Source of the DNA: an uncultured Collinsella sp.
GTDB taxonomy: Bacteria > Actinomycetota > Coriobacteriia > Coriobacteriales > Coriobacteriaceae
Reading direction: 5' to 3'
NCBI GenBank assembly: GCA_934658705.1
Contig: CAKUHP010000001.1
Location: 39,888 to 103,887 of the forward strand
DNA: 64,000 nt
A program made the translations under genes and the position numbers. The notes below the pieces were generated by a model. The model was given only the letters and a program-made list of their open reading frames with translations. It was not told the origin of the DNA and made no database searches. Positions 12,531-34,542 of this stretch are shown here, one piece after another (within the stretch, counting starts at the first letter, position 1; each line of letters opens with the position of its first letter).

Positions 12531-13868
12531 ATGGACGAGATGTTTGCCATTAAATGCCAAAACTGCGGCGGCCCCATGTATTCGCACCAGGCTAAACGCA
12601 GCTTTGAGTGCGCCTATTGCGGCACGGTCGTTCCGTGGCAGGCCGATGCGGGGGAGCCCAAGAGCGCCCTGGGCATTCGTCATACGCCGTTGACGGTGGT
12701 TGACGGGCTGCTTAAGCTCACGCACGTCTCGCAGCTCGAGCGCCCGGAGGACCCGGACTGGTATTTCTTTAATTCGTACTGGCGCAATCAGTCGGTTCTG
12801 GAGCATCTGCTGTGGGAGGACCGCGGCACGGCTCAGGAGTTCCAAGAAGCTACGCATGTGAGCATCCCGTGCCCCTTCTGCGGCGCATCCTTTGAAGGCG
12901 AGTCCACTCAGCGCGTGTTTGAGTGCCCGTCATGCGGCAATAAGATCGGCGTTGCCGACCTGCTTAAACCCGGTACCTTTAGTAAGCGCCTGACCATGGG
13001 CGTGGGTGCCGAATACGTTCCCGAACAGGGCGTCCCCTGTGAGATATCGCCGCAGCAGGCACGTGCCAACGCGCTGCAGCTGGTGCGCCAGTACCCCGAC
13101 GCCTTTGCCGGGCACGACGTGGAAGACGCGATTCAAAATGACATGATGCTCTTCTACTTCCCCATGGCGCTCGCGGACTTGCGCATGATGGCGTCCTTCC
13201 CGGGCAAGGGCCTGAGCAAGGAGACCTTGGTGTACTACGAGGTACTCGATTGGGCGTATCCGCGGGCAAACTACCTGGACGTTCGTCTTATGGGCATTTT
13301 GGAGCCGTGGGACTTTGGCAAGGTGGGGTCGTTCGATCCTGCCATGCAGGAAGGCGACTTCCGCGTTGTCTCCGTCGATGCGTCCACCAAGGACCAGGTG
13401 GTTATTGATAAGTTGGCGCTCGATATTGCTGGCAACGATGCCGAGGCGGTGCTGGGGCTCAATAAAAAGAGCATCCGCACCTGGGCGCGCAAGGCCCGCA
13501 AACACAAGGACGGTCTGGTTATGGTGCCGGTCTACTTTGTCGACCGTCCGGCAACGGACAGCCGCGACGGCGAGCAGGTGCGCATTGCCGTGAACGGCCA
13601 GACGGGCCGTGCGGCCGCGGTGGTGTTTAGCGACAAGCGCGAGACGCATGTGGTGGCACCGCTCAATCCTAGTGTGATGCTGTCGAGCGAAAGCACCGTG
13701 CACGCCACGCCCATCGAGGTCAAATACGTCAAATCGCCGTTTTTGTACCAGATCGTGCGACGTGGGGGTGGCGAGCAGCCACGGCAGGTGGCGGCTGCAG
13801 CCGAGGGCTCCTATCGAGAAGAAAAGCCCAAGCGCAGGGGCTTGTTCGCGGCGATTTTTGGGAAGTAG
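12531..13868 (+). CDS. Double zinc-ribbon protein of unknown function
   Basis: A 445-residue soluble protein. Two TFIIB-like zinc ribbons are clear. The first is at residues 8-34 (CQNCGG, CAYCGT). The second is at about 113-142 (CPFCGASF, CPSCGNKIG). About 300 residues of mixed alpha/beta sequence follow, with no domain I can name. The C-terminus is basic (KPKRRGLFAAIFGK). No signal peptide or transmembrane segment is seen. The ATG is set by a strong AAAGGAGGA eight bases upstream. Paired ribbons of this kind often bind nucleic acid or a partner protein. A candidate operator lies just upstream, and the CDF gene is divergent. Confidence 0.7.
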   Translation: MDEMFAIKCQNCGGPMYSHQAKRSFECAYCGTVVPWQADAGEPKSALGIRHTPLTVVDGLLKLTHVSQLERPEDPDWYFFNSYWRNQSVLEHLLWEDRGTAQEFQEATHVSIPCPFCGASFEGESTQRVFECPSCGNKIGVADLLKPGTFSKRLTMGVGAEYVPEQGVPCEISPQQARANALQLVRQYPDAFAGHDVEDAIQNDMMLFYFPMALADLRMMASFPGKGLSKETLVYYEVLDWAYPRANYLDVRLMGILEPWDFGKVGSFDPAMQEGDFRVVSVDASTKDQVVIDKLALDIAGNDAEAVLGLNKKSIRTWARKARKHKDGLVMVPVYFVDRPATDSRDGEQVRIAVNGQTGRAAAVVFSDKRETHVVAPLNPSVMLSSESTVHATPIEVKYVKSPFLYQIVRRGGGEQPRQVAAAAEGSYREEKPKRRGLFAAIFGK

Positions 13869-13899
13869 GGGAGTGAGAGCTACTGTCCGGTCGTTTAAC

Positions 13900-14062
13900 A
13901 GGTGCTAGATGTAAATAAACGGTGGAGCGGCTGCAGAAGATCCACCTCGCCGGGTAAAATCATGTTGTGCCGCGGAACCCGCTCCTCAGCTAGTCACACT
14001 TCGGAAGCGCGGGCAACGCAGGTGCTATCGTCTAAAGGGCCGGGTGCAACCGGCCCTTTTTT
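13900..14062 (+). ncRNA. Candidate small non-coding RNA
   Basis: About 160 nt with no credible frame, ending in a strong intrinsic terminator. It contains potential helices (GGTGGA with TCCACC around 13920-13950, GGAGCGG with CCGCTCC further out). The extended -10-like TGCTAGAT near 13903-13910 could be a promoter. The next gene is on the opposite strand, so the terminator has no coding partner nearer than the gene ending at 13868. It lacks the SRP RNA apical motif and I cannot assign it to 6S, tmRNA or a riboswitch. A 3' UTR of the preceding gene is the alternative. Confidence 0.35.
14034..14062 (+). terminator. Strong rho-independent terminator
   Basis: A perfect 10-bp stem (14034-14043 with 14050-14059), a GTGCAA loop and six Ts. 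It ends either the candidate ncRNA or the zinc-ribbon gene 165 bp upstream. Confidence 0.9.
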
Positions 14063-26093: not shown

Positions 26094-26100
26094 CGACCCC

Positions 26101-26314
26101 TGGGGGACGGAGGAAAACGGATCATTTTGCCTTGCGTCGCGACGGCGTGGGCTGGTTCGAACAAAACTATGCCGGTTTACGGGGCTGGAGTGCCGAACCT
26201 CGAGCATACCGAAATTCGCGCTTTTAAAACCGCTGGTAGATGAGTCGTTGCTTTTCGAAAATGGCAGATATGGTTGCGAAGTGCTGAATCAGCCCCGTAA
26301 ACCGGCATAGTTTT
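26101..26314. repeat. Long inverted-repeat element, copy 2 of 2
   Basis: Perfect 25-bp arms (26163-26187 and 26290-26314) enclose about 100 bp. The outer 18 bp of the arms match the 7604 copy; the inner part (ACGGGGCTG against ACTACGATGA) differs but stays complementary within each copy. The flank at 26101-26130 matches that of copy 1 in the same direction, while the interior matches its reverse complement. It lies between the UbiB gene and the cobalamin riboswitch. Confidence 0.75.
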
Positions 26315-26439
26315 GAAACGGGCCGTTCTTGTAAGGTCCGATGACAGTCCTTCCTATTGCAAACCATAGCTTTTACCTTGGGCTTCGCCTGTGTGCGGGG
26401 CCCTTTTGCGTGATACCATACTGACAGTAATAATCGATG

Positions 26440-26612
26440 GCCTAGATGGTGGTGCGGAGACGCACGAATGCGTGGTTTTCCTGCGCGTTTGGGAGAATCG
26501 GGGTGCAAGTCCCCGGCTGTACCAGTAACCGTAATTCCTCTTGGCCCGGGATGGTCGCGTCGCAGATCGGACGGCGCGCCCGGGTCGGTAAGGTTAAGTC
26601 GGATCGCCTCCC
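26440..26612 (+). promoter_or_regulatory. Cobalamin riboswitch
   Basis: The core reads GGGAGAATCGGGGTGCAAGT followed by CCCCGGCTGTACCAGTAACC and GTAA (26491-26535). It closely follows the B12-box consensus of cobalamin aptamers. The 3' conserved box AAGTCGGATCGCCTCCC (26595-26611) is in place, and its CCTCCC pairs with the GGGAG at the start of the core. A 60-nt variable peripheral domain lies between. The start of the surface-protein gene is about 150 nt downstream. Cobalamin would be expected to repress that operon, as is usual for this class; the expression platform was not resolved. Confidence 0.88.
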
Positions 26613-26759
26613 ATCTTGTACGCGGCCGCGGCGCATGCCGCCGGTACGCGTTGGGCTCTGGAGGAAAGGGGGACCCCGATGGGGGTACTCGGGCGCAATA
26701 TGCGCAATGATGTGGGGCAGCCGCTGGGCAATGCTCCAAGTGCAGACAGTAGGAGACAA

Positions 26760-29700
26760 ATGGATATGTTTGTGGACGAGTGCCAGCGCGCCTCGTGGCG
26801 TCGTCATGGAGCGATTGCACACGGCGTAGCCAGGCGCGGCCTGGTGGCGTTCCTGGCCTTCGCGATGGCTTTTGGCACCACGCCTGCCCAGATGTGGGCC
26901 GACGGCGCCGAGGACATTGCCGGGGCTGTTGCTGCTGCGACGGCTGGCGAGGGCGCGTCGGCTGACGATACCCGCGTCGCTGATGCTGGCGCGAACGGCG
27001 CTGCTGCCGAGGATGGCTCGGCTGCCGATGACGCTGCTGCGAATACGGCGGACAACGATAGCACGACTGCTGGTGACACCGGTAACGCCGAGGCTGCTGC
27101 ATCGGTGGCGTCCGTTGCCCCCGAGCAGAGCGAGCCGAAGGCCGCTGCCGCTTCTGCCACGACGCTTTCGAGCGAGGCCAAGGTCTACATTCAGGATTCC
27201 AAGGATAAGGACAACGCCTCTTCTCTCCAGTGGAAGTCGGGCGCTCTCAGCGTGGGCGATACGCTTTGGGCCAATATGTACGACGAGGATGAGGACGACT
27301 ACTATAGCTCGTCCTATTCTGTCGCCAATCCTGGCACTGGCACCTGGACCTATACCTGGCTTGCCGGCACGGTTAGGGACAGCAACAACATCGCCGATTA
27401 CACTGAGGACGTCGGCCACGAACAGTCGCTCACCGTTACCGACGCCATGGCGGGCAAGTACTTCATCTGTAAGGTGACGGCGGGTGGCAAGGACTACTAC
27501 GGTCCGTCCGTTTCTTACGGCTCGGGCATCAACGCCAATTACATCCCCGGTCCCGTGCTGGGCGCCGGGCAGGCGAGCCTCTACTCTGTCAAACTGAGCA
27601 ATTCCTCGCCGACCGTAGGCGACGAGGTCACCGCGACGGCATACACTGCGTACAACACGCCCGCCTCGAGCGACACCAAGGTGACCTACACCTGGTACGA
27701 GTCGACCAACAAATACTCCGGCTGGACCGAGATTAAGGGCGCGACGACCGCCTCCCTCACGCTAACCGACGCCCTTGAGGGCAAGTACGTCAAGGTCAAG
27801 GCAAACGCCGGCGTGAACGACGTCGAGGCCACGACCAGCGACGTCGTGCTCAAGGCTGGCGCGGTCAAGCTCGCGGGCGTCGAGCTCTCCGCTTCCTCCA
27901 CGGAGATCGGCGCGACCCTCACGGCTAAGGCGTACACAGGCTCGAGCTACAGCCCCTCCTACGTCGACAACTCCAAGGTCACCTACACCTGGAAGAAGTA
28001 CAAGGGCACCTCGACGCCCAGCAGCTCCACGAAGTGGGAGACTATCGAGGGCGAGTCTGGCCCTACGCTTACGGTGTCCGATAACCTCGAGGGCTACTAC
28101 GTTAGCGTCTCCGCCAATGCGGGCGCGAACGATGTCTCGTTCGGCAACTGGTCGACCGGCTATGGCGTTGGTCCATTCAAGCAGGCCGGTGCCGTGGATA
28201 TCCACACCGCCATCCTGGCCCCCGAAGGCTCTACCTCCGGTACCTATGTCTATACCGTTGACGATACCGTTCAGGCTCTTGCTAAAGAGAAGGGTGCGTC
28301 CGATTACATCGATGCGACCAAGCTGAACTATCAGTGGCAGGTTTCGGACAAGAAGAACGGTACCTACACCGATATCGAGGGTGCGACGTCGAGCACCCTC
28401 GAGCTCTCGGCTTACGAGGGCAAGTCGGTTCGTTGCCACATCGCCTCAAAGATCGGCAATAGCGAGTACAACACCAAGGGCACGAGCCTTATCGGTGCTG
28501 CTGGCTCCATCAGCATCACGAAGGTCACGCTTGACCGCACCGGCGAGGCGACGGTCGGCCAGAAGATCACCGCTACGGCGAAGTCGGGCTCCGACGACGT
28601 GACCTCGAGCCCCAAGGTTACGTGGTCCTGGTATTACGGGGACTCCTCGAGTGCCTGCAACACGAAGATCGAGGGCGCGAACACTAACTCGTTTACGCCC
28701 GATGCGACGCTGGCGAACAAATACGTCCACGCGCGCGCCAACGGCGGCTTCGGTGACGAGCAATCGAGCGCATTGCCCGTTGTGGAGGCTGGGGCGGTCG
28801 ATCTCTACGGCGTTACGGTCACGGGTGCCCTGGCATCCGGACAGATTGCTGCAGGCAAGGTTCTGACCGCGAAGGCGACCAAAGGCAACTCCTACACCGA
28901 CGTCCTCGCGACGGACACGGTCCACTATCAGTGGCAGTACTCCAACGACAAGAGCTCCTACGACAGCCACTTCGTCAACATTCCCGATGCGACCGACTCC
29001 GCGACGTATGCGCCGACCAACGACATGGTGGGCAAGTACATTCGTGTGATCGCCACGAGCAAGAACTCGGTGAAGAGCACCGAGAAGAAGAGCACCTACT
29101 ACGGTACGCAGTCTGTCGACCCCGTTGGCCCAGTGACGCTTGCCGGTCAGTACAAGCTCAAGTCCGTTGCGCCCAACGAGGCTTCTTCGACGACGCTCTC
29201 CGTCGGCTCAGTGCTCACTCCACGCGTGAAGATCCCTGGTTCTTCGAGCTGGTCCGATTCTGATCTGCCCGAGGACGCTAAGCTCACGCTCGCTTGGTAT
29301 GCCAAGGGTGAGGGTGATTCAGACTGGGTGGAACTCACCGAAGGCATTGACGCCGAGACCGTCGCGCTGACGCTCAACGATTCTCTCGTCGGAAAGCGCA
29401 TCAAGCTCACCGCACGCGCTCTCGACAACACGGTTGAATGGGTTTCGTCCGATAGCGTCACCACGGCGGGGGAGTACAACCTGCTGCGCGTGATCGCCAA
29501 CCCGCAGATCAATAGCGATTCGGTCCATCTCGTTTCGGGCGACGGCGTCAAGGCGACAGTGCAGGCCAAGCGCGCTGACGGTTCGGCCACCAACGGTATC
29601 GACGTAACCGCTCAGACGACGGTTGCCTGGTATGCGGCTGACGATGCGAAGGCTGCGGCGGCCGACTGGACGCTGCTGTCCGACATGTCGGGCGCCACGG

Positions 29701-32700
29701 CGACGGTCTCGGCTTCTGCTGCGGGCAAGTATCTGAAGGCTGTCGCTACGAGTGGCAGCTCGACGGTCGAGCTCATCTCCGCTAACAAGGTTATCGCCGC
29801 AGGCTCGCTCGAGGCTGCGGTTCAAAAGCTCACCGATGCCAACAAGCAGATTGTTGTTGATTACAACGCCAAGGGCGGCAATGTCAACGATGTCCTGAAG
29901 GCGCAGCTTGCCGAGCTTGGCTTTGATGGCGTTGACGTTAAGGTCGTCGAGGACGGTGTTGCCTTCAAGGCCGAGGATGCCAAGGCTACGGTCGCCATCT
30001 CCGATGCCCAGGACAAGACCAACGGCGATGTGACATTCTTCTACATCGATCCCAACGACTACACCGGCTACAACATCGACGGCCTGCGCAGTGCGGATGT
30101 GGTGTTTGAGCTATCGCGTGGCGACGAGCTCGAATACTACCAGCCCAACAAGACGGTGCAGGTTGCTTGGGACGAGGCTCGTGTGCAGCAGATGCTCGAC
30201 GATGCTGCCGAGCAGGTTGCCATCGGCTATGCTTCGGGCGATTCGGCTGGGTCCGTCACGTCCAACCTCACGCTGCCGTATCGCGCGGGTTCCAAGAGCA
30301 AGTTCGAGGTCAGCTGGAAGAGCTCCGACGGCGATGTTATTTGGCCGTCCGGTTATGGCTGGAGCGACTACACCGGAAAGGTGACGCGCCTCTCGAGCGA
30401 TCGTGACATTACGCTCACGGCGACCGTTTCGTTTGTGAGCGGCGGCCCGTCTGACGTTAAGGGCACGCACGACTTCACGGTGACGGTCAAGGGCGATCCC
30501 GAGAAGGTCGCCGCCGACAAGAAAGCGCTGCAGGAGAAAGTCGACGCAGCCTTTACCTACAACACTATCAAGTACTTCGACACCAAAAGGGATGCGGACA
30601 AGGACGGCTTAAACGCCGACCTGCAAATGCCGCTCCCAAAGGACATCGGCGTTGATGGCAAGTACTACGATGTCAAGTACTCCGCCAGCACCAACGACAT
30701 CACGTTTAACGGTTACAAGGGCACGGTCTACCAGCCGCTGCCGGGCGCCGAGGCGGCGAAGACCAAGGTTACCCTTACGGTGACCGATAAGTCCAACGCC
30801 GAGGTCACGGCAAGCAAGACCCTCGACTTTGCGATTGCCCCGCAGGACCAGTCCGAGCTCAAGGCTGAGCTGTTCTACCTCGGCCTTGCGAAGTCTTCGT
30901 TCTACCTGGGTATTCTTGACGGGCAAAATATCTCCGATGTGACGGGAAACCTACATGCGCCGCTGAAGGTGTATGGTCAAGGGTCCGGTCTGGGATCTGC
31001 TGTTAATTGGTGCTACACCACCGAGGAAGCCGCTGGCCATTATGGTTTCGTGTTCAGCGAGCTCCCCGGCGGCACGGAGAGTACCTATCGTCTGCTTAAG
31101 TCGAGCAAGCCGAGTGTTATCTCGCACGAGAACCTTCTGCTTAAGCAGCCCAAGTACAACACGAAGGTTACGATCAGCGGTCGCTTGAAGAGCGAGCGAT
31201 TCGCTCGTTATGCCGAGCGCTATCCCGACGATCCTGACTACGCGGTGCTTGCCGGCCTGGATGTATCCGCGACGGTCACCGTCAAGGGAACGACGGGTCT
31301 CGATAACCCCAACGAGGGCAAGACCATTACGGTAACGGCCAAGGTCACGGGTGTGTCGGCAAGCGATGCCGACGGCAGCTACACCGAGCAGTCGGTGGTG
31401 CCGCTGACCGAGGTCACGCTTCCTGCCGATAAAGACACGACGGCCGAGTCGGTGCTCGAGCAGCTTATGACGACTGCCGGCTGCACTGACCTCAAGGCAA
31501 ATGGTTTGGGCCTTACGAGCGCGACGATGCCTGATGGTCGCGTGCTTAGCATGACAGACACCGTGCCGCGCAGCTATTGGTCGTTCTATGTGAACAATGA
31601 GTACTCGAATAATGCTGGCGCTCTGAGCTACTACCTCAAGAATGGCGATTGCGTCGAGTTCCGTTACGTCAAGGGCGACGGCACGCAGAAACCCTTGACG
31701 GCTCCTGCTACCAATCCTAAGACGGGGCATCCCGATGTCGATACGGCATGGAATGGCTTTGCGAACGGTGGCTCGGGGTCCGCAACGGATGCCCTTACGC
31801 CTACGGCAAAGACCGATACGCCCTCATGGGCACTCAACCTCCTGACCGAAGAGCAGCAGAAGGCGGGCGCAAATGTCTCTGCGTCCGATCCCATTGTTGC
31901 AAATGGAAAGGTGTACCTTGTCACGGGCGCCTCGGTATGGAATGGAAAAACGTGGAATGCTGTCCTGAATGAGATTGATCCTGAGACGGGTTCCGTCGTG
32001 CGATCCCTCGAGCTGGGCTCTTCCATGGATAGCACGTGCCGTCCTGTTGTTGCGCAGGGCATCATTTTGATTCCGCTTTCGGGTGGCTATCTGCAGGCTG
32101 TTTCGGCAAAGACGTTCGAGACGCTGTGGTATTCCGATGCCTTCACTAAGCAGAATCTGTCTTCGTTGACCGTTGATGGCGATTACGTCTATATCAACAC
32201 CCTAGATTATTGGTCCAACAACGACGTGCAAAACGGCACCGTTAAGCGCATCAATATTCATACGGGCGCCGTTGCTGGTAGCGCTTCTGTTGACGACGGT
32301 GGCTACTACTGGTCTGGCGGCCTGATGGTCAACGGCTACTACGTTGTCGGCGGAGATTTTGGCCAGGTGCGTGTGTATTCCGCCGATCTGTCTAAGCTTG
32401 TTGGCTCGATTAAGCTCTCTGGCGGCAATATTCGTTCGGCGCTTACCGTTCATGACGGCTATGTATATGCCGTCACGCGCGATGACGGCACGTTGCACAG
32501 GCTTGCCATTGGCTCTGATGGCTCTCTTACTGAGGCTGCGGCAGTTCAGTTTGCCGCGTATTCGACTTCGACGCCTGTTTTCAGCGGAAATTACGCCTTT
32601 ATTGGCGGCGCAACCGCGAACAATTGGAACGCTAAGGGCCTGCTTTCAATCGTTGATCTTTCCGATATGAGTGTGAAGCAGATTTCGAAGGCCGATGGCG

Positions 32701-33623
32701 AAGAGCTTGGCTTTGAGTCCAAGAGCACACCGCTCGTCTCGACGCGTGATGGCGAGACGTACGTATACTTTACGCTGAACGGGGCCAAGGGCAATTGGCC
32801 TAATTACACTACCGGCGGCGGTGTGTACATGTACAGGCTGGGCGATGCCGAGGCAACCGAAGTTTTCGGTCCTGGTTCTGGATATGCCAACTACTGCATG
32901 GCATCGGTTGTCTGCGATCAGTTCGGCAATCTGTACTACACGAACGACTCGGGCCACCTGTTCTGCGTGAAGTCTCAGGCACATCGCGTCAAGTTTGATG
33001 CCAAGGGCGGTTCGTTGGTTGATAGCCAGACCCCCGCTTCGGGCTCGACTGTCACCAAGCCGGCCGATCCGACGCGTGAGGGCTATACCTTCGCTGGTTG
33101 GTATACCGATGAGGCTTGCACGGAGGCGTACAAATTTGACGCTGCGGTGACGGCCGATATGACGCTGTATGCCAAGTGGACCAAGAATGCCGTTAACCCT
33201 GGCGGCAATGGCGACTCTGGCTCCAACGGCGGCAATGGCGGATCTAACGGCGGTTCTGGCAATGGCGCGAACGGCCAGCAGGCTGGCGGCGCTGTTGCTC
33301 CGGGCCAAAAGCCGGTGTCCACCACGACTAAGACCGAGACCAAGGACGGCAAGGATTCCAAGAAGGATTCCGATAAGTCCGACAAGAAGGACGGCAAGAA
33401 GTCCGACAAGAAGTCTGACAAGAAGGACGGCAAGTCCGGCTCCAAGTCGGGCGCGGGCTCGGCTGCTACGACCGCCGCTGAGAAGTCCGTAAGGGCTTCG
33501 CAACAGGAGTCTGGCTTTAACCCGCTCGCCATCGTCGGCGTCGCGGCTGGCGTGATCGGCCTTGCCGTTATCGCCGTCTTTGTGCTGACCAAGCGCGGCA
33601 AGGGTGACAGTGATGTCCGATAA
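26760..33623 (+). CDS. Giant surface protein: Ig-like repeats, DUF4430, PQQ-like propeller, InlB-type repeat
   Basis: A 2287-residue exported protein. Order: signal peptide (about 1-48); Ala/Asp/Thr linker to 140; about eight Ig-like repeats of some 100 residues, each ending near a (K/E/T/V)AG motif (140-1015); two or three atrophied Ig-like domains (about 1110-1500, for example VTSNLTLPYRAGS); a transcobalamin-like DUF4430 domain (about 1519-1640, YWSFYVNNEY and YYLKNGDCVEFRYV); a PQQ-like beta-propeller (about 1690-2075); an InlB/Flg_new repeat (REGYTFAGWYTDEAC); a Lys/Asp/Ser stalk; and a C-terminal transmembrane helix with a basic tail. There is no LPXTG. Start ATG 26760 follows AGGAG. 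The cobalamin riboswitch upstream points to corrinoid binding or sensing. The next gene overlaps by 11 bp. Confidence 0.82.
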   Translation: MDMFVDECQRASWRRHGAIAHGVARRGLVAFLAFAMAFGTTPAQMWADGAEDIAGAVAAATAGEGASADDTRVADAGANGAAAEDGSAADDAAANTADNDSTTAGDTGNAEAAASVASVAPEQSEPKAAAASATTLSSEAKVYIQDSKDKDNASSLQWKSGALSVGDTLWANMYDEDEDDYYSSSYSVANPGTGTWTYTWLAGTVRDSNNIADYTEDVGHEQSLTVTDAMAGKYFICKVTAGGKDYYGPSVSYGSGINANYIPGPVLGAGQASLYSVKLSNSSPTVGDEVTATAYTAYNTPASSDTKVTYTWYESTNKYSGWTEIKGATTASLTLTDALEGKYVKVKANAGVNDVEATTSDVVLKAGAVKLAGVELSASSTEIGATLTAKAYTGSSYSPSYVDNSKVTYTWKKYKGTSTPSSSTKWETIEGESGPTLTVSDNLEGYYVSVSANAGANDVSFGNWSTGYGVGPFKQAGAVDIHTAILAPEGSTSGTYVYTVDDTVQALAKEKGASDYIDATKLNYQWQVSDKKNGTYTDIEGATSSTLELSAYEGKSVRCHIASKIGNSEYNTKGTSLIGAAGSISITKVTLDRTGEATVGQKITATAKSGSDDVTSSPKVTWSWYYGDSSSACNTKIEGANTNSFTPDATLANKYVHARANGGFGDEQSSALPVVEAGAVDLYGVTVTGALASGQIAAGKVLTAKATKGNSYTDVLATDTVHYQWQYSNDKSSYDSHFVNIPDATDSATYAPTNDMVGKYIRVIATSKNSVKSTEKKSTYYGTQSVDPVGPVTLAGQYKLKSVAPNEASSTTLSVGSVLTPRVKIPGSSSWSDSDLPEDAKLTLAWYAKGEGDSDWVELTEGIDAETVALTLNDSLVGKRIKLTARALDNTVEWVSSDSVTTAGEYNLLRVIANPQINSDSVHLVSGDGVKATVQAKRADGSATNGIDVTAQTTVAWYAADDAKAAAADWTLLSDMSGATATVSASAAGKYLKAVATSGSSTVELISANKVIAAGSLEAAVQKLTDANKQIVVDYNAKGGNVNDVLKAQLAELGFDGVDVKVVEDGVAFKAEDAKATVAISDAQDKTNGDVTFFYIDPNDYTGYNIDGLRSADVVFELSRGDELEYYQPNKTVQVAWDEARVQQMLDDAAEQVAIGYASGDSAGSVTSNLTLPYRAGSKSKFEVSWKSSDGDVIWPSGYGWSDYTGKVTRLSSDRDITLTATVSFVSGGPSDVKGTHDFTVTVKGDPEKVAADKKALQEKVDAAFTYNTIKYFDTKRDADKDGLNADLQMPLPKDIGVDGKYYDVKYSASTNDITFNGYKGTVYQPLPGAEAAKTKVTLTVTDKSNAEVTASKTLDFAIAPQDQSELKAELFYLGLAKSSFYLGILDGQNISDVTGNLHAPLKVYGQGSGLGSAVNWCYTTEEAAGHYGFVFSELPGGTESTYRLLKSSKPSVISHENLLLKQPKYNTKVTISGRLKSERFARYAERYPDDPDYAVLAGLDVSATVTVKGTTGLDNPNEGKTITVTAKVTGVSASDADGSYTEQSVVPLTEVTLPADKDTTAESVLEQLMTTAGCTDLKANGLGLTSATMPDGRVLSMTDTVPRSYWSFYVNNEYSNNAGALSYYLKNGDCVEFRYVKGDGTQKPLTAPATNPKTGHPDVDTAWNGFANGGSGSATDALTPTAKTDTPSWALNLLTEEQQKAGANVSASDPIVANGKVYLVTGASVWNGKTWNAVLNEIDPETGSVVRSLELGSSMDSTCRPVVAQGIILIPLSGGYLQAVSAKTFETLWYSDAFTKQNLSSLTVDGDYVYINTLDYWSNNDVQNGTVKRINIHTGAVAGSASVDDGGYYWSGGLMVNGYYVVGGDFGQVRVYSADLSKLVGSIKLSGGNIRSALTVHDGYVYAVTRDDGTLHRLAIGSDGSLTEAAAVQFAAYSTSTPVFSGNYAFIGGATANNWNAKGLLSIVDLSDMSVKQISKADGEELGFESKSTPLVSTRDGETYVYFTLNGAKGNWPNYTTGGGVYMYRLGDAEATEVFGPGSGYANYCMASVVCDQFGNLYYTNDSGHLFCVKSQAHRVKFDAKGGSLVDSQTPASGSTVTKPADPTREGYTFAGWYTDEACTEAYKFDAAVTADMTLYAKWTKNAVNPGGNGDSGSNGGNGGSNGGSGNGANGQQAGGAVAPGQKPVSTTTKTETKDGKDSKKDSDKSDKKDGKKSDKKSDKKDGKSGSKSGAGSAATTAAEKSVRASQQESGFNPLAIVGVAAGVIGLAVIAVFVLTKRGKGDSDVR

Positions 33624-34482
33624 GTCCAAAGACGCTGATGCCAAGCAGCCGGACGCTTCGTTCATCCAGCTCGATGACGCTACGCAAAAGGGCGCCGCTT
33701 CGGCGGCGTCCGCCCCTCGGCGCAAGGAACTCCTTGGCGTTCTGACCGTCGCGTGCACCATTCTGATCGTCGTCTCGCTGGGTTTCGTCCATCCTTCCGC
33801 AAGTGGTGCCTGGTCCATCGACTGGATCATTCAGACCGTGACGGGGGAGAGCGTCGTCACCAAGGACACCAAGGCGTCTGGCTCGACTACGACTTCGGGC
33901 AAGGTCGGGTCCAAGGATTCCAAATCTTCTGATGATACGAATGACGGGTCTAGGGGATCTGACAAATCTGACTCCAAGAAAGATTCCGAGTCCTCGGACA
34001 AGGAATCGGACAAGAACTCGGATAGCAAGAAGTCCGGCGAAAAAGGAGCGGGAAATAAAAAGACTGACAACAGTCAGTCGGCTTCTCAGAATTCGGCAAA
34101 CTCCAGTGGGCCTTCTGCCGTTCCTGATAACGGTAGTGCCTCCTCGGGCGGCCAGAGCGGCTCACAGGAGTCCAACTACGTTACGGTGACGGTTTCGGTC
34201 ACATCGAGCGCTGTGGGCAATCCTGTGTCTTCTAGTGGCACCTTCACCTTTAACAAGGGAGCCACGGTCTACGATGCCCTGTGCGCCCTAGGGCTTTCCG
34301 TGAATGCGCGCGGCACGTCGTACGGCACGTATGTCGCCGCTATCGGCGGCCTGGCCGAGATGGAGCACGGCGACAGGAGTGGCTGGATGTACTCCGTTAA
34401 CGGCGAAACGCCCATGACGGCCTGCAGTAGCTACGTTCTCCCCAATGGTGCCAACGTCGTCTGGTATTACGTAACAGGCTAA
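33613..34482 (+). CDS. Membrane-anchored DUF4430 (transcobalamin-like) protein
   Basis: A 289-residue protein. A short cytoplasmic N-terminus and one transmembrane helix (about 40-62, LLGVLTVACTILIVVSLGF) lead into a long Ser/Lys/Asp-rich stalk (about 80-185). The outer DUF4430 domain follows (about 190-289: TVYDALCALGL, SGWMYSVNGE, VLPNGANVVWYYV), the beta domain also found at the C-terminus of intrinsic factor and transcobalamin. ATG 33613 lies inside the end of the giant surface gene, so both share the cobalamin-riboswitch transcript. The pair may present two corrinoid-contacting domains on the cell surface; binding is inferred only. Confidence 0.85.
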   Translation: MSDKSKDADAKQPDASFIQLDDATQKGAASAASAPRRKELLGVLTVACTILIVVSLGFVHPSASGAWSIDWIIQTVTGESVVTKDTKASGSTTTSGKVGSKDSKSSDDTNDGSRGSDKSDSKKDSESSDKESDKNSDSKKSGEKGAGNKKTDNSQSASQNSANSSGPSAVPDNGSASSGGQSGSQESNYVTVTVSVTSSAVGNPVSSSGTFTFNKGATVYDALCALGLSVNARGTSYGTYVAAIGGLAEMEHGDRSGWMYSVNGETPMTACSSYVLPNGANVVWYYVTG

Positions 34483-34504: not shown

Positions 34505-34542
34505 ACGGGCGGCTCGGACAAACATCCGGGCCGCCCGTCTTT
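34505..34542 (+). terminator. Terminator of the DUF4430 operon
   Basis: A 13-bp stem with one G-U (34505-34517 with 34526-34538), 8-nt loop, then TCTTTA. It is 22 bp beyond the stop codon. Confidence 0.7.

Follow-up and report, generated by a model that had tools for sequence, protein, structure and literature searches.

A cobalamin aptamer ahead of two genes for predicted surface proteins

Why should a cobalamin-type aptamer stand directly before two genes whose products would lie outside the membrane? This question is raised by a locus of an uncultured Collinsella sp. (GenBank assembly GCA_934658705.1, contig CAKUHP010000001.1), which we analyzed within a 64,000-nucleotide stretch of that contig (the window) and whose two products each carry a DUF4430 domain. 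An earlier note, made from the letters alone, had read it as a surface apparatus for corrinoid capture, storage or sensing; our analysis supports capture, and storage or sensing found no support beyond that for capture. We interpret the locus as probably encoding an apparatus that scavenges corrinoids at the outer membrane face, would be under vitamin B12 control and would hand its putative ligand to an energy-coupling factor (ECF) importer, and we give this interpretation a probability of roughly 0.78. Surface capture of corrinoids is favored because of the cobalamin aptamer itself, the co-localization of such aptamers with DUF4430 genes in Coriobacteriia and in Bacillota, the co-operonic ECF genes of related loci and a match in protein fold.

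The aptamer is followed on the same strand by gene 1 and gene 2, and the start of gene 2 overlaps the end of gene 1 (Table 1), so that the two-gene operon proposed earlier, with a DUF4430 domain in each product, is borne out. In a search of positions 26100-26900 with permissive filters, AdoCbl-II (RF01689) was the best match (26479-26589, 30.5 bits, E 5.2e-5), and the aptamer spanned the full model (1-81 of 81). The core pattern occurred once in each of 22 out of 197 genomes of the class, and a backwards control of the pattern gave none among the matches listed for these genomes. The window copy was then aligned with 12 other loci, 7 of them divergent (alignment A2). The results showed that 98.5% of the aligned cells were paired and that 14 of 33 consensus pairs had changed on both sides, with 38 double-change cells vs. 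10.8 in shuffles and at most 6 in slid controls. A covariance model built from this alignment, R1, found 64 sites in 59 of the 197 genomes. The Rfam models, which are independent of R1, were run on 20 loci (17 distinct): the AdoCbl-II gathering score was passed by 5 of the 17 distinct homologous loci while 12 fell below it, and 10 matched the cobalamin clan with E values of 0.05 or less. Together, these comparisons show what we take as a Coriobacteriia branch of the cobalamin riboswitch, lying largely under the Rfam AdoCbl-II threshold. The window copy is homologous to accepted members and is itself named AdoCbl-II-like only, because its 30.5 bits lie under the gathering score of 36.5. The aptamer placed directly before the operon is therefore upheld by this match, by relatives over the gathering score and by strong covariation; the Rfam check that had been proposed for it succeeded for some homologues and fell short for the window copy.

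A switch by pairing of CCUCC, on the 3′ side of the aptamer, with the GGAGG of the ribosome-binding site was considered and rejected. The fold of 26596-26690 was of ordinary energy (z -0.41), and complementarity within a locus was about the same as that between loci (mean of 5.50 vs. 5.49 pairs, a value reached in 2783 of 5000 permutations; 14 of 21 loci were readable). We claim no expression platform for the window aptamer. As a separate observation, an element CTGGA..(A/G)AAGG recurs immediately ahead of the start codon in aptamer-led loci (the window, L137-L143, L161, L164 and L167), where it overlaps the putative ribosome-binding site; it is a possible expression platform.

Both proteins carry a DUF4430 domain

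DUF4430 (PF14478) is in Pfam still a domain of unknown function, and its cut-off of 23.8 bits was cleared by gene 2 with 62.4 bits and by gene 1 with 28.2 bits. The more likely start of gene 2, by comparison with the database copy P0003 of the same length, is ATG 33613, giving 289 amino acids. The protein has the form previously described as a stalked DUF4430, with a Ser/Lys-rich stalk before the domain, whose GWMYSVNG motif was invariant or nearly so in 35 aligned sequences. In the structure model (pLDDT, the predicted local distance difference test, of 93.5) a helix at 38-44 is followed by strands at 49-54 and 57-63, a beta-grasp with a hairpin inserted behind the helix, as in the definition of the transcobalamin-like SLBB clade (PMC1796856; this and most of the other papers cited by accession are drawn on in excerpt). 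The model matched the fold of the B12-binding beta domain of the animal carriers (PDB 4kki, 3kq4, 2pmv and 5np4) at 13-24% identity, which agrees with the fold shared with intrinsic factor and transcobalamin that had been proposed from the domain family.

Gene 1 has an in-frame ATG at 26679, 9 bases past GGAGGAAAGG, that gives 2314 amino acids, the same length as database copy P0123; the 2287 residues reported earlier correspond to the open reading frame (ORF) 26760-33623. Its DUF4430 match covers the second half of the profile only and is modeled with low confidence. As for the immunoglobulin (Ig) repeats and propeller that had been described, Pfam recognized an aBig_2 domain and the propeller is present in the structure model; the other Ig repeats were recognized by eye, self-comparison of gene 1 at E 1e-4 gave no significant repeats, and Pfam gave no propeller match in gene 1. 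A BtuG-like propeller was considered, as BtuG is a propeller that binds B12, and is not favored: the nearest structural chains were eight-bladed BamB and YxaL types, and BtuG was absent among the 50 matches listed. A Lys-rich stretch precedes the C-terminal membrane anchor, and a motif scan showed no LPxTG near this terminus. From their anchors both proteins would face outward, as had been proposed. The gene 2 anchor and the C-terminal anchor of gene 1 were found by hydropathy; the signal-like segment at the gene 1 N terminus was seen by eye, and the hydropathy scan at threshold flagged the C-terminal segment alone. Pfam found no signaling domain in either protein.

Among nine named Collinsella genomes, seven have a shorter gene 1 (1000-1320 amino acids) with 3-4 copies of DUF4430; in the other two, gene 1 is split between contigs (G003) or is a long window-like protein with a single copy (G009). 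In the translations of L001 and L008, 'YWQLFVNG'-type DUF4430 copies occupy the place of the Ig array, which is absent. The N-terminal half of gene 1 thus varies among Collinsella, as Ig array or tandem DUF4430, while the leader is conserved.

Linkage of aptamer, DUF4430 and ECF genes across genomes

The 64 R1 sites were next related to 150 listed DUF4430 matches. The results showed that 57 of the 64 sites have a listed DUF4430 match downstream on the same strand, 0.3-8.2 kb off, whereas a control that covered 15 kb upstream and on the opposite strand gave none among the matches listed. The sites without a listed DUF4430 lie in G178, G128, G226, G157, G209, G192 (a second site, partial match) and G176, of which those in G128 and G209 have an ECF S component 3.0 and 2.6 kb downstream; in G109 and G183, two R1 sites each stand before one gene. 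An S component lay within 11 kb downstream of 28 of the 64 sites, counted on the best 107 S-component matches, from which second fragments and weak rows were excluded. Across the 197 genomes DUF4430 was present in 108, the S component in 111 and both in 106, counts that are not corrected for kinship.

P0002 also found 74 loci, 37 of which were taken as an outside set with 35 genomes; the choice was made by protein similarity and not by riboswitch. DUF4430 was found in all 35 genomes and the cobalamin riboswitch RF00174 in 20. In these 20 genomes, which are Bacillota, 29 of 36 DUF4430 clusters lay at most 10 kb behind a cobalamin riboswitch (25 of them at most 5 kb), where 0.32 were expected. 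This count excludes seven weak DUF4430 rows in G013, G016 and G021, which fall inside counted clusters, and keeps three sub-cut-off RF00174 rows of G012; cluster C2 of G012 is counted via one such row, and one of its two matches is also directly behind an above-cut-off site. The more distant clusters are those of G032, G033 and G034 (8-10 kb) and C10 of G012 (6.4 kb). The genome survey for DUF4430 genes behind B12 riboswitches that the earlier note had suggested was positive, both at the R1 sites and in Bacillota. Separately, L019, L023 and L028 hold DUF4430 proteins in Archaeoglobi-type genomes with no RF00174 match, and their function there may differ.

The order of genes in relatives connects the aptamer with an importer. 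In L143, the aptamer is followed on the same strand by a 996-amino-acid ORF with two DUF4430 stretches and a PQQ propeller, then by a DUF4430 protein of 276 amino acids, and finally by genes for a membrane protein like EcfT, for a double ABC ATPase and for an S component. The EcfT-like protein has no Pfam match and is 44% identical over 273 residues to the copy of L201; the S component has DUF6580 as its best Pfam match and is also over the cut-off for PF07155 and PF12822. In L187, the genes behind a recognized cobalamin riboswitch encode first a propeller, then an fn3 protein and a protein with DUF4430. In L137, the aptamer and the ECF genes are separated by the gene of a small DUF4430 protein, and L138 looks alike. 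These arrangements bear on a B12-regulated adhesin, for which B12 would report the gut niche, gene 1 would bind a host or microbial polysaccharide or protein, and DUF4430 would be structural or a sugar-binding beta-grasp. Such a role would suit the adhesin-like architecture of gene 1 (aBig_2, InlB-type repeat) and the differences in its N-terminal region among Collinsella, but DUF4430 and the ECF S component co-occur, often behind the same aptamer, and an adhesin makes little sense in the place of the DUF4430-only protein of L137; we regard it as improbable.

The window itself gave no match to EcfT, EcfS or FecCD queries (BtuF was not among the queries), and its only ABC matches for importer queries were generic ABC ATPases at 59.5-61.9 kb. 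The absence of classical BtuFCD or ECF genes noted before thus holds for the families searched in the window, but not for related genomes: G001 and G196 each have an EcfT-EcfA-EcfS set, located apart from the DUF4430 operon (Pfam-checked in G001). The lack of importer genes is probably local to the window, the set being encoded elsewhere in the sampled Collinsella-type genomes, as far as relatives tell. This separation and the anchored, stalked form of gene 2 would also fit a surface B12 sensor or store, which would signal or buffer and not feed uptake. We hold this to be very improbable; neither protein has a signaling domain, and related loci place the same genes in one operon with the importer.

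Host B12 and points against the interpretation

A B12-binding-domain protein of about 855 amino acids was found in all 12 Collinsella-type genomes (the nine named and three recognized by a near-identical leader), and in one it was MetH-like by eye. Collinsella aerofaciens is a common human gut species. In PMC6593275 it is among the listed B12-requiring strains, though predicted to have a complete synthesis gene set. FecCD permease was present in 10 of the 12 genomes. Near the cbiD region of G001 (C42), at 665-6217 of L207, genes for lipoprotein-like products adjoin those of a FecCD permease and of an ABC ATPase.

Several observations weigh against a B12-scavenging role or narrow its evidence. 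The same 10 genomes have cbiD and may make B12, and G202 and G184 carry aptamer and DUF4430 but no PF02310 match. One covariation measure was weak, with 29 further pair types vs. 25.4 in shuffles and 25 of 500 shuffles equally high. The R1 counts are not independent, since 15 of the 64 sites are near-identical Collinsella-type copies and 10 are R1 training loci. R1 was unmatched in 50 of the 108 class genomes with DUF4430 and matched none of 22 loci put to it (20 from R1-less genomes, with L012 and L013). When Rfam was run on 10 of the R1-less loci, RF00174 was over the cut-off upstream in L181, L182 and L187, L186 had a weak AdoCbl match and six had none. A riboswitch ahead of every DUF4430 gene of the class is ruled out by the loci that lack both R1 and RF00174. 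In the outside set, 15 of the 35 genomes have DUF4430 but no RF00174 match (11 Coriobacteriia, three archaea and one Ruminococcaceae), and 7 of the 36 clusters in the 20 Bacillota genomes have no RF00174 upstream. The separate ECF set showed no recognized riboswitch when Rfam was run on L201, L202 and L204.

Two further points concern the proteins. Sequence proof of homology with transcobalamin was sought with four queries against PDB sequences, covering both DUF4430 types, and none was significant (E 0.44 and 0.43, 0.14 for profile A5, unlisted for profile A3); haptocorrin ranked first for two of them, third for A5 and was unlisted for A3. For the predicted likeness to transcobalamin, the comparison of folds alone is decisive. 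In addition, neither protein matched the alpha/alpha-toroid (PF01122) at E up to 1, and the two-domain sandwich of the animal carriers therefore cannot form here as such.

The presence of cbiD also raises the question of the ligand. DUF4430 might bind a B12 precursor or analogue (cobinamide, other cobamides) or cobalt, so that the locus would serve corrinoid or cobalt salvage. Precursors would be useful to genomes with cbiD, CbiQ/CbiO-like modules also serve cobalt, PMC1796856 leaves precursors open, and structure 3u7z is titled 'putative metal binding protein'. We nevertheless consider salvage of this kind unlikely: the control element is a cobalamin aptamer, the S component is over the cut-off for the vitamin-type S family PF07155, and two genomes of unknown completeness in which neither cbiD nor FecCD was found (G009 and G139) keep the DUF4430 locus.

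Proposed mechanism of surface capture

Taken as an apparatus for corrinoid capture, the locus could work as follows. At low intracellular cobalamin the aptamer would be empty and the two-gene operon would be made, whereas cobalamin would shut the operon off; this direction is the usual behavior of the riboswitch family. The DUF4430 of gene 2, on its flexible Ser/Lys-rich stalk, would bind corrinoids via the same face as transcobalamin and intrinsic factor. The product of gene 1 would act as a long anchored scaffold, whose diverged DUF4430 and propeller may carry the capture site outward and/or form a second wall. The bound corrinoid would then pass to an ECF importer, presumably encoded elsewhere in the genome, by way of its S component. 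It is conceivable, though doubtful, that Coriobacteriia build a corrinoid trap whose opposing jaw, formed by the alpha/alpha-toroid in animal B12 carriers, is instead the propeller or a second DUF4430, and which the stalked DUF4430 of gene 2 closes. If true, such a trap in the human gut could be a competitor of the haptocorrin and intrinsic factor of the host, which share its beta-domain fold, or could even take B12 from them.

Features of the locus and its surroundings

Gene 2 has its best relatives in 11 Collinsella loci; the gene order was kept in all 6 of these that were inspected, and all but one of the 11 have a leader with 89-94% identity. By Pfam, an ABC1-kinase gene lies 5′ of the locus and two GtrA genes lie 3′ on the opposite strand. 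The hairpin behind gene 2 is terminator-like, and a terminator consensus scan listed no forward-strand terminator at that position. Collinsella-1 was the sole Rfam family at gathering score in the window, and, like the relatives of gene 2, it points to Collinsella as the source. Between the ABC1-kinase gene and the aptamer, a 22-base inverted repeat (26166-26187 and 26290-26311) brackets a stretch of about 100 bases, and its 13-base core occurs once each in L132, L133, L145 and L150, from two genomes (G178 and G139).

Table 1. Features of the DUF4430 locus and nearby elements, in window positions.
Feature	Position	Strand	Basis or remark
Collinsella-1 RNA (RF01700)	13850-14056	+	160.7 bits
Cobalamin riboswitch aptamer, AdoCbl-II-like Coriobacteriia form	26442-26617	+	extent from 13-locus alignment A2 and model R1
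Putative ribosome-binding site GGAGGAAAGG ahead of ATG 26679	26660-26669	+	read from sequence; similar elements in related loci
Gene 1, predicted secreted, membrane-anchored multidomain protein, 2314 aa	26679-33623	+	2287 aa if start 26760
Ig-like repeat array, residues ~140-1050 (P0001)	27177-29909	+	repeat motif by eye
aBig_2 atrophied bacterial Ig domain, residues 1147-1244	30198-30491	+	Pfam 46.9 bits, cut-off 27
Diverged DUF4430 (YW type), Pfam 1600-1637	31398-31676	+	28.2 bits, cut-off 23.8; alignment with other gene 1 copies
PQQ/BamB-type beta-propeller, probably eight-bladed, residues 1679-2075	31794-32984	+	structure model
Listeria-Bacteroides (InlB-type) repeat, residues 2076-2139	32985-33176	+	Flg_new 77.5 bits; internalin B chains matched
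C-terminal transmembrane anchor with basic tail, ~2251-2277	33510-33590	+	hydropathy and motif scan
Gene 2, stalked DUF4430 protein	33604-34482	+	292 aa (GTG 33604) or 289 aa (ATG 33613)
Gene 2 N-terminal signal-anchor	33733-33801	+	hydropathy, one hydrophobic segment ~40-66
Gene 2 DUF4430 (transcobalamin-like SLBB), residues 219-290, GWMYSVNG motif	34258-34473	+	Pfam PF14478, 62.4 bits
Terminator-like hairpin 3′ of gene 2, 14 pairs, short T tail	34505-34538	+	-30.3 kcal/mol, z -7.0

Comparison with known systems

The kind of system is not new: in 2007 transcobalamin-like SLBB proteins on Gram-positive surfaces were predicted to scavenge B12 (Burroughs et al., PMC1796856), and what is added here is a quantified link to riboswitches. 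With the SLBB clade described there, the locus shares a signal peptide (by eye in gene 1), surface anchoring, the SLBB/DUF4430 domain, fusions to Ig and propeller domains and a second SLBB paralogue in the operon, the last being common but not universal in the clade. It differs in that CbiO/CbiQ-type ABC genes, usual in the operons of the clade though not defining it, are missing from the window operon, and in its host: the clade is named from low-GC Gram-positives, planctomycetes and euryarchaea, whereas this locus belongs to Coriobacteriia and has an AdoCbl-II-like aptamer. The word 'riboswitch' is absent from that text. In the open literature, with subscription papers mostly outside its scope, we found no paper tying DUF4430 to cobalamin riboswitches and none that later tested whether DUF4430 binds B12. 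A row in a proteomics table of PMC9963975 reads 'additional lipoprotein component of putative cobalamin ECF transporter'; according to the text of that paper, rtpR of Lacticaseibacillus has a DUF4430 gene as its neighbor. In Coriobacteriia and Bacillota, the linkage counts tie DUF4430 both to regulation by B12 and to import of the ECF type, and the 2007 prediction is therefore directly testable.

Among known RNAs, the AdoCbl-II riboswitch (RF01689, clan CL00101) has its core and pairing in common with the window aptamer, which has long variable extensions. Vertebrate transcobalamin, intrinsic factor and haptocorrin (4kki, 3kq4, 2pmv, 5np4) differ in their toroid partner domain, and haptocorrin has YWELL where the gene 2 DUF4430 has GWMYSVNG. 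ECF-CbrT of Lactobacillus delbrueckii (PMC5997447) is an ECF-type B12 importer, the kind proposed here, and no extracellular DUF4430 partner is described for it in the passages drawn on. A parallel in function would be found in Bacteroides, whose surface lipoproteins BtuG and BtuH (PMC6143338, PMC8941943, PMC13398666) capture B12 at the surface ahead of an importer in gut bacteria. The partner of BtuG, a seven-bladed propeller related to 3DSM, is BtuB, whereas here the nearest propellers among the matches listed are the eight-bladed BamB and YxaL types and the host is Gram-positive; a surface capture system at this locus would be a Gram-positive counterpart to BtuG and BtuH in the competition for the vitamin.

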